A stretch of DNA of 64,000 bases, taken from Candidatus Sulfotelmatobacter sp. GTDB taxonomy: Bacteria > Vulcanimicrobiota > Vulcanimicrobiia > Vulcanimicrobiales > Vulcanimicrobiaceae. Below the pieces are notes generated by a model. That model was given only the letters and a program-made list of their open reading frames with translations, searched no databases and was not told the DNA's origin. Positions within the stretch are counted from its first letter, which is position 1. Each line of letters begins with the position of its first letter. The stretch spans positions 1-64,000 of the forward strand of contig DATJRY010000017.1 in assembly GCA_035504415.1 (NCBI GenBank), given 5' to 3'. Made by a program: the position numbers and the translations under genes. Positions 18,686 to 20,670 of the stretch are shown in pieces.

Positions 18686-20488
18686 CTAACCGGCCCCCAC
18701 CAAGCCGTCCTGAAGGAGCGGGATGGCGTCCAGCTCGCGCATGACGCGGGCGAAGTCGCCGAAGGTCAGCGCTTGGTCGGCATCGCTGCGCGCCTCGCTG
18801 GGGTTCGGGTGGACCTCGACCAGCAGCCCGTGCGCGCCGACGGCCTTCGCCGCGCGGCACAGCGGCCCGATCCAGCGCCGCACGCCGACGCCGTGCGAGG
18901 GGTCGATCATGACCGGCAGGTGGGTGCGCTCGCGCAGCACCGGCACCGCCGAGAGGTCGAGCGTGTTGCGGGTCGCCGTCTCGAAGGTGCGGATGCCGCG
19001 CTCGCACAGGATGACGTTGGGGTTGCCTTCGGCGAGGATGTACTCGGCGGCCGAGAGCAGCTCGTCGATCGTCGCCGCCATCCCGCGCTTGAGGAGCACC
19101 GGGCGCTCGGTGCGGCCGACCGCGCGCAACAGGTCGAAGTTCTGCATGTTGCGCGCACCGACTTGCAGCAGATCGACCGACTGCGCCATCCGCTCGACCT
19201 GGTCGATGCTCATCACCTCGCTGACGATCGGCAGGCCGACCGAACGGCCCGCCTCCGCCAGCAGCGCGACGCCTTCGAAGCCCAGCCCTTGGAACGCGTA
19301 CGGCGAGGTGCGCGGCTTGAACGCGCCGCCGCGCAGCATCACCGCCCCGGCGGCGGCGACGGCCTCGGCCGTCGCCAGCACCTGTTCGCGCGATTCGACG
19401 CTGCACGGGCCGCCGACGACCACGAAGTGTCCGTCGCCGACGATGACGTCGCCGACCACGACGCGCGAGCGGCCGTTGAGATCGCGGCGCATCACCTTCG
19501 GTGTCGAGGACTTGGCCGGCGGCGCCGGCGCGACCGGCGGCGTCGTGTCGACGACGACGGCCGGTGCGACGCGCACGCGCGGCGGGGCCGTCGCCGCGTC
19601 GTAGCTGCCGATGACGTGCAGCACCGAGGTCACGCCACGCAGCGCGCGCAGCGCGGCGTCGAAGCGCGGTTCGCGCGCGTCGCCGTCGACGTCGGCGTAG
19701 AACGAGTATTGGTGCGTCGCGCCCAGCCGCGACTTGGAGTCGAGCTTCGAGCAGTTCAGCCCGTGATCGCCCAGCACCGAGAGCACGCGACCCAGCGCGC
19801 CCGGCTCGTCGGCGACGCCGAACACGATCGAGGTCTTGCGATTGGTGAAGTGTTCGGCCGGTTCGAAGTCGGCTGCCGGCCCACGTGCGTTGCGGGCACG
19901 GAACAGGATGAAGCGGGTGAAGTTGTCGGGGTGGTCGGCGATCGTGCCCGCCAGCTCGATCAACCCGAAGCGCTGCGCGGCGGCGGCCGAGGCGATCGCG
20001 CCGCGGGCCGGATCGGCGGCCGCGGCGACGTCGCGCGCGGCCAGGCCCGTGTCGGGCACCGGGATCCGGCGCACGTCGGGCAGGGTGGCGAGAAAGCGGC
20101 CGCACTCGGCCAGCACCACCGGATGCGAGTCGATCTCGCGCAGGCCGTCCAGCGTCGCGCCGGGCACCCCGAGCAGCTTGTGATCCATCCGCCAGGTGAT
20201 CTCGGCGAGCAGGTCCAGCTCGTATTCGGCCAGGACGTCGTAGCCTTCGCGGATCGTCCCGGCGATCGCGTTGTCGACCGGCAGCAGACCGACGTCGGCG
20301 CGGCCGGAGAGCACGGCGTGGGCGACGCCGCGGTACGTCGGCTGCCCCTGCGGGGTGAACGTGACGCCGCGCCGGCCGGCGTAGCTTTCGAGCACCGCGT
20401 GCGAGTACGAGCCCTCGATCCCTTCGAAGGCCGCGCTCATCGTCAGGTTCGGGGTGCCGGTCGGATCGGGCAGCGTCTGGGCGTCCAT
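18686..20488 (-). CDS. prephenate dehydratase-ACT-DAHP synthase fusion
   Basis: A 600-residue protein joining the last-but-one step of phenylalanine synthesis to the first step of the shikimate pathway. Residues about 20-200 are prephenate dehydratase ([28 protein letters not shown], and the catalytic TRF in DNFTRFILF). An ACT domain spans about 215-290 ([26 protein letters not shown]). A Pro/Ala/Val-rich linker follows (about 300-330). A type I-beta DAHP synthase occupies about 335-595 ([52 protein letters not shown]). The central ACT domain could let phenylalanine inhibit both activities. Upstream lies an aromatic leader peptide and terminator, so the gene appears to be attenuated. Confidence 0.93.
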
Positions 20489-20500
20489 CGTGATCTCCGG

Positions 20501-20532
20501 AAAAAAGAGCCCCTCGCGTCGGCGAGGGGCTC
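20501..20532 (-). terminator. intrinsic terminator of the aromatic attenuator
   Basis: On the minus strand an 11-bp stem (GAGCCCCTCGC pairing with GCGAGGGGCTC; arms 20522-20532 and 20507-20517) with a four-base loop is followed at once by six T residues (20501-20506). It lies 12 bp before the start codon of the PheA-AroF fusion and after the aromatic leader peptide, the position of an attenuator terminator rather than a gene end. Confidence 0.88.
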
Positions 20533-20560
20533 TGTTAGTGCGGGTCCGTCGGGACTCGGG

Positions 20561-20632
20561 CTACACAGGCTCTCCGCGCCGCGGCGCTTGCCGAGCGTAA
20601 AAGTACCAGTAGCCGAAGGTCCGGGCGGTCAT
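20561..20632 (-). CDS. aromatic-rich leader peptide (attenuator)
   Basis: A 23-codon open frame, ATG 20632 to TAG 20561, not previously called because of its size. Residues 6-12 read FGYWYFY: two Phe, three Tyr and one Trp in seven codons, very unlikely by chance in this GC-rich genome because these are AT-leaning codons. A CGGAG element lies about four bases before the ATG. About 28 bp after its stop comes the intrinsic terminator, then the PheA-AroF fusion gene. This is the classic layout of transcription attenuation by ribosome stalling at scarce charged tRNA-Phe/Tyr/Trp. The alternative antiterminator pairing was not established. Confidence 0.82.
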   Translation of the reverse strand: MTARTFGYWYFYARQAPRRGEPV

Positions 20633-20641
20633 GTACTCCGT

Positions 20642-20670
20642 TTCCTATCACGGGCACGGGAACGCGTCAA
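20642..20670 (-). promoter_or_regulatory. candidate promoter for the attenuated aromatic gene
   Basis: On the minus strand TTGACG (20665-20670) is followed, after 17 bp, by TAGGAA (20642-20647), a good -35 with a weak -10. Transcription would start only a few bases before the leader peptide ATG, so the leader mRNA might be nearly leaderless. Confidence is limited by the -10. Confidence 0.35.

Follow-up and report, generated by a model that had tools for sequence, protein, structure and literature searches.

A putative aromatic leader-peptide attenuator upstream of a prephenate dehydratase-DAHP synthase fusion gene in Candidatus Eremiobacterota

The fusion gene and its leader region

The window, by which we mean the whole 64-kb stretch of DNA analyzed here, carries on its minus strand a gene that joins a prephenate dehydratase domain (PF00800) to a class I DAHP synthase domain (PF00793), with an ACT-like domain between them whose match to PF01842, at 26.6 bits, falls just below the cut-off of 27 (Table 1). 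It is the sole DAHP synthase found in the genome, with one class I match and no class II enzyme found, and the one entry enzyme of the aromatic amino acid pathway; a second prephenate dehydratase is present. An earlier note on this DNA had argued that a leader carrying aromatic codons would suit control of the first shikimate step; finding no other DAHP synthase agrees with that argument.

Upstream of this gene we observe the 23-codon frame that the note had described, with FGYWYFY at residues 6-12 (two Phe, three Tyr and one Trp, with the Trp codon, number 9, at the cluster's center). Exactly one stop-to-stop frame in the window has at least six aromatic residues in seven, and it is this leader ORF; none of 20 random windows generated from a first-order Markov model contains such a frame. 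The frame is followed by a terminator stem, AGAGCCCCTCGC / GCGAGGGGCTCT, with a CGAC loop at 20533-20506 and a T run that reaches 20501, 12 bp from the fusion ATG. The stem had been described as a perfect 11-bp one; it is perfect, has its T run and lies at the claimed distance from the gene, but it comprises 12 pairs. Its fold has a z of -6.6 against dinucleotide shuffles. The whole leader folds at -63.1 kcal/mol (z -3.8), with the ORF and the terminator as separate hairpins.

Table 1. Features of the fusion-gene locus and further candidate leaders of the same genome
Feature	Position	Strand	Remarks
Prephenate dehydratase - ACT - DAHP synthase fusion gene	18686..20488	-	Pfam; own Shine-Dalgarno; 600 aa
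-35-like element TTGACG	20665..20670	-	TTGAC at matching position in 26/26 fusion-gene leaders
-10-like element TAGGAA	20642..20647	-	9 nt upstream of leader start codon; weak consensus match
Leader ORF MTARTFGYWYFYARQAPRRGEPV	20632-20561	-	23 codons; ATG 20632-20630; TAG ends 20561; aromatic leader kept in relatives
Putative regulatory codons 6-12 (F G Y W Y F Y) of leader ORF	within 20561..20632	-
Predicted antiterminator 5' arm (segment 2)	20556..20582	-	overlaps leader ORF end and stop codon; RNA duplex prediction, swap tests
Predicted antiterminator 3' arm (segment 3)	20519..20543	-	overlaps terminator 5' arm
Intrinsic terminator	20501..20533	-	12-bp stem, CGAC loop, run of U; fold -25.8 kcal/mol; compensatory changes in relatives
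Candidate leader MSRPYLLAWYFGCTALVSVELGNA	C11:437273		before aroA
Candidate leader MLVRLVLVLVRVLLAVLIDDRRDAFA	L198		before ilvC; ilvB and leuA-like gene downstream, same strand, within 5 kb
Candidate leader MFASSSIIIASRIIIAAPPGRRAASA	L202		before ilvA-like PLP enzyme
Candidate leader MTRCRMMTTTTMTTTLGEGRSRSTYA	L207		before homoserine dehydrogenase (hom)
Candidate leader MIRTTAASMMRMMRTRTSGRRYFVLR	L200		before Cys/Met-metabolism PLP enzyme (metB/Y)
Candidate leader MSFTCCLSMMQCSTGLRTRRSATS	L205		before sulfite/nitrite reductase (cysI)
Candidate leader MRSMSCRLAMSMCCSPGGRPGSV	L197		before ssuA-like binding protein
Candidate leader MFETGRSAMCCCLCRPRTGRPGFSLA	L201		before 1-Cys peroxiredoxin

The promoter-like elements lie close to the leader start codon. 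Leader start codons were picked by hand ahead of the promoter analysis, and in 61 of 65 leaders of the same type (94%) a -10 element ends 6-11 nt upstream of the start codon, as against 18% in shuffled upstream DNA; the window's own TAGGAA is not called by a simple promoter scan. The earlier note had also pointed to a Shine-Dalgarno-like CGGAG. This sequence does occur, at 20640-20636, yet it is doubtful as a ribosome-binding site, for it sits between the -10 element and the start codon. By the same placement, and judging from promoter spacing in a window whose own -10 is weak, the leader is probably transcribed as a leaderless or nearly leaderless mRNA. Anti-Shine-Dalgarno pairing of -5 kcal/mol or stronger occurs in one of the 26 fusion leaders, the window's own, versus 88% of main genes. 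The design suggested for this phylum is one of leader ORFs that lack a Shine-Dalgarno sequence, followed by main genes that are led by one.

Conservation of the leader among relatives

The host, a little-studied bacterium from soil, belongs to the phylum Eremiobacterota/Vulcanimicrobiota, and the named relatives that the fusion protein brings up belong to Candidatus Eremiobacterota. Within the phylum, 149 genomes were searched, and 34 of them, every one from the window's own family, have long matches to the fusion. Upstream DNA could be read at 33 loci. An aromatic-rich leader ORF followed by a GC-rich hairpin is present at 27 of them, counting the window's own (26 analyzed in detail, plus L192); L011 is cut off upstream, and L013 has an assembly gap within the leader. 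Loss of the reading frame in relatives had been named beforehand as grounds for refutation, and the frame is instead kept. Examples include MSVQTWSYRYFYASCDARRRGRPLP, MLATASFYAYYFYWVESPLG, MSRSSYAYWYFSRPAGPV and, at locus L004, MAVTSWFYRYFYAECAALRRGRPLP, and the element is present in G005, a single-contig relative from the window's genus. The terminator lies 92-122 nt from the start codon across the 26 leaders, and most hairpins in relatives have a U- or pyrimidine-rich tail, with weak tails in a few. In the closest relatives an excess of third-position change is not demonstrable, with minority letters numbering 6, 5 and 7 at codon positions 1, 2 and 3.

The element is dispensable, because at six loci, all from genus g18 (L021, L026, L032-L035), the fusion gene has neither leader nor terminator. 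Some of these six have a TATTAAC-like box just before the fusion start, and the main gene there is possibly leaderless. Nor is the leader tied to the fusion, because leaders likewise precede DAHP synthase genes that are not fused, in families f2 and f3 and in one case in the window's family (MSTSPRSYFAYWYFTGAHRRSG, MMMHQAAWASYYRYGWPIRPVGTPLR, MTTRSTTFAYAYFSRPSGSAGGRVRAR). A scan of 420 nt upstream of distant fusion homologues from Myxococcota, Chloroflexi, Actinomycetota, Krumholzibacteria, Diapherotrites and Aerophobetes shows no aromatic leader, a weak negative because for several the match begins inside a longer ORF. These relatives include L039-L042, L044, L046, L085 and L086 (the Diapherotrites member being a bin), and in some the upstream sequence reads on and, by eye, is chorismate mutase domain-like.

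A predicted antiterminator competing with the terminator

The earlier note had proposed a search for a competing antiterminator and for covariation in the terminator, and both are found. RNA duplex prediction places the best partner of the terminator 5' arm at the end of the ORF in all 26 leaders, starting at ATG+42 to +60 and ending at about +77 to +94. In the window the antiterminator fold reaches -29.4 kcal/mol (z -3.1). A 1:2 protector hairpin is predicted in most sequences, with a mean z of only -1.07.

A MAFFT alignment of all 26 leaders was set aside, as it misregistered the two terminator types. Pairs were therefore counted on A2, an alignment of 13 sequences, and the main test for covariation dispensed with an alignment, swapping partners between leaders. 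Arms pair with their own partners at a mean of -28.2 kcal/mol versus -24.2 kcal/mol for permuted partners. With one sequence per genus, none of 5000 permutations reaches the own-partner pairing, and p is 0.001 when the window's genus and its two nearest (g1, g29 and g19) are removed. When the target columns are scrambled identically in all sequences, the effect is gone (0/300). On A2, terminator covariation is strong (0/500 shuffles), with compensatory changes in relatives, and antiterminator covariation on this MAFFT alignment is modest (15/500 shuffles, or 62/500 for pairs changed on both sides), with the proviso that related sequences can exceed such shuffles. Versions of the antiterminator slid out of register pair in 23-48% of A2 cells, versus 78% in register.

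The arm is also placed as attenuation would need it. Across the 26 leaders, the median distance from the cluster's last aromatic codon to the antiterminator arm is 15 nt, and the stop codon falls inside the arm in 25 of them, so that a stalled ribosome would leave the arm free and a finishing ribosome would cover it.

A proposed attenuation mechanism

In the E. coli trpL and pheL leaders, segments 2:3 and 3:4 pair in alternative folds, the regulatory codons lie upstream of segment 2, and the stop codon falls within segment 2. The window element has this architecture in common with them. It differs in that trpL and pheL each respond to a single amino acid and have leader ORFs led by a Shine-Dalgarno sequence. 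The sequence analysis covered the ORF and how well it is conserved, the terminator and the antiterminator that covaries, the distances between these parts, and the promoter-like elements by the start codon. From it we observe a short aromatic-rich ORF, an intrinsic terminator before the gene, and a predicted antiterminator that is mutually exclusive with that terminator. On this basis the window element is very likely a ribosome-mediated transcription attenuator controlling the PDT-DAHP synthase gene, and the conserved aromatic frame, the terminator and the covarying antiterminator bear out the earlier note's proposal of such attenuation. From the same features we infer the transcript ends, the stalling, the read-through and the dominant one among the three amino acids.

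Under the proposed mechanism, RNA polymerase would start at the leader ATG or a few bases before it, and a ribosome would follow on the leaderless or nearly leaderless ORF. If charged Phe-, Tyr- or Trp-tRNA were scarce, the ribosome would stall at codons 6-12, some 15 nt short of the antiterminator arm; the arm would then be free to capture the 5' half of the terminator, and transcription would enter the PDT-DAHP synthase gene. Were the tRNAs charged, the ribosome would reach the stop codon inside the arm and cover it, and the terminator would form. If this is true, low aromatic amino acids would switch on the sole entry enzyme of the aromatic pathway through a leader and a conditional stop of transcription.

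The same parts could conceivably work otherwise. The leader ORF might act on initiation or translation of the fusion gene, by coupling or reinitiation, with the hairpin a constitutive partial terminator, or the terminated RNA or peptide might act in trans, as documented for the leader products rnTrpL and peTrpL of S. meliloti (PMC7298713). We think this improbable: the ORF end pairs with the terminator arm specifically and covaries with it, as an antiterminator needs; the fusion gene, like 88% of main genes, has its own Shine-Dalgarno sequence, so that coupling is not required; and beyond the aromatic cluster the leaders share little peptide identity, which speaks against a trans-acting peptide.

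Amino acids likely sensed by the leader

The earlier note had proposed that Phe, Tyr and Trp supply is read jointly. By content this holds for the window leader, but only 15 of the 26 leaders contain all three aromatic amino acids. Tyr occurs in 25 leaders, Phe in 23 and Trp in 19 (Trp is absent from seven, Phe from three and Tyr from one), and codon totals come to 79 Tyr, 47 Phe and 22 Trp. These counts lend weight to a tentative but serious alternative, in which the leader works but senses mainly Tyr, along with Phe, the Trp codon being incidental rather than part of a three-way aromatic sensor. The aroR leader of C. glutamicum, with its Phe-Tyr-Phe motif, points the same way, as it answers Phe limitation only (PMC11802643). 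Against it stand the position of the window's Trp codon amid the cluster, the leaders that do contain all three aromatics, and the frequent presence of Trp in the aroA leaders of the genus.

Codon choice in the leaders is also skewed. The Phe and Tyr codons less used by the fusion genes, TTT and TAT, are enriched in the leaders relative to those genes (Fisher p 5e-14 and 2e-5, respectively). This is suggestive of selection for slow codons, a hint rather than proof because local base composition may differ.

The putative attenuator would guard the genome's only DAHP synthase, within a fusion with prephenate dehydratase, and the leaders of many relatives carry all three aromatics. A three-aromatic leader offers a direct test of whether a single attenuator integrates three end products.

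Comparison with known leaders

Attenuation is a textbook mechanism, but it is documented in few phyla. Comparable leaders before DAHP synthase genes are already reported from Corynebacterium and Acholeplasma, which amends the earlier note. In C. glutamicum, the aroR leader upstream of aroF acts by ribosome-stalling attenuation (PMC11802643, PMC4046766). Compared by description, it likewise places aromatic codons in a leader peptide before a DAHP synthase gene; unlike the window leader, it has no Trp in its stated motif and responds to Phe and not Tyr, and its aroF is unfused, one of two DAHP synthases, and from another phylum (PMC11802643). In Acholeplasma, a leader has been proposed for the uORFC-13-1 motif upstream of aroF, which shares with the window a short uORF with one or more Phe codons, an intrinsic terminator before a DAHP synthase gene and promoter elements nearby (PMC8632094). 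It differs in having Phe only and a ribosome-binding site, and in being limited to Acholeplasma and environmental sequences. The trpL transcript of S. meliloti begins at the leader ATG (PMC7298713), as we infer for the window; that leader has Trp only, precedes trpE(G) and belongs to Alphaproteobacteria.

We found no open-access papers linking Eremiobacterota with leader peptides. The mechanism is the known one of trpL and pheL; its phylum-wide use appears undescribed, and the scale of the regulon appears to be the newer part.

Further candidate leaders in the genome and phylum

A covariance model, R1, was built from 13 fusion leaders and run over the phylum and over this genome, where it finds 10 distinct places at E 0.3, nine of them with a leader ORF, the window's included; being trained on fusion leaders, R1 gains from a shared terminator type. 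The codons of these leaders suit the pathway of the gene downstream: F/Y/W before DAHP synthase and aroA, L/V/I before ilvC, I before ilvA, T and M before hom, M before metB/Y, C/M before cysI and the ssuA-like gene, and C before the peroxiredoxin. This agreement is evidence separate from the R1 score. In orthologous leaders from other species of the genus, the amino acids are kept while the rest of the peptide varies.

Such switching of amino acid with pathway among sibling leaders also bears on a further reading of the window, that a ligand-binding riboswitch or T-box lies upstream of the gene and the ORF is fortuitous. The strong fold of the leader RNA would suit this reading, which we nonetheless regard as highly improbable: the aromatic codons are kept while codon choice and surrounding sequence vary, and no Rfam family reaches its gathering score at the window or in 13 other loci. 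The best Rfam leader family at the window, Leu_leader, scores 27.2 bits against a threshold of 50, mostly on the terminator.

Returning to leader-peptide attenuation, the candidates listed above, before aroA, ilv, hom, met, cys and ssuA-like genes, suggest that a largely uncultured phylum may rest much of its control of amino-acid and sulfur genes on this mechanism. We consider it reasonably likely that near-leaderless leader-peptide attenuators, some of them composite sensors, are the default genome-wide control of amino-acid and sulfur assimilation in Eremiobacterota/Vulcanimicrobiota, with at least nine in this genome. Mycobacteria, a group rich in leaderless transcripts, have uORFs with Cys clusters before cysteine and sulfur genes, which the cysI and ssuA-like leaders resemble, though the amino acid differs from that of the window leader (PMC4633059). 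The Cys leaders of Actinobacteria have no conserved terminators (PMC1262725).

The aroA gene (EPSP synthase) has its own aromatic leader and terminator, conserved in the genus (L199, L217, L226, L227, L232), and is a candidate second shikimate-pathway attenuator. Leaders before ilvB, leuA-like and trpE genes are seen in relatives. The genome's own trpE and hisG have no recognisable leader, and no Trp leader is seen upstream of trpE in the window's genus (L131, L132, L134-L136, L143), whereas trpE of family f3 relatives does have one. Trp-rich leaders such as MKTHAQAWWWWASARRLAHVQALT, with terminator-like hairpins, precede trpE in relatives at L116-L118, L124, L138, L140 and L142. Several of the trpE loci from the window's genus have a long imperfect inverted repeat (TCTCGGC...TAGCCAG...GCCGAGA) of varying stem that adjoins a -10-like box.

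Among CADD-like enzymes, some reportedly use a Tyr of their own. At L234 and L193, Tyr-rich leaders (MLVRTYAYGYYYYGYSAESRSRTVLLA and MFASHLASTSYYYGRFDRSRPR) precede a gene that by eye resembles PqqC/TenA/CADD-like proteins; the downstream gene at L234 has no Pfam match at 1e-8. At L233, an aromatic leader, MWTLGSYGYSFYYCRLRGW, precedes a type I chorismate mutase gene (PF07736).
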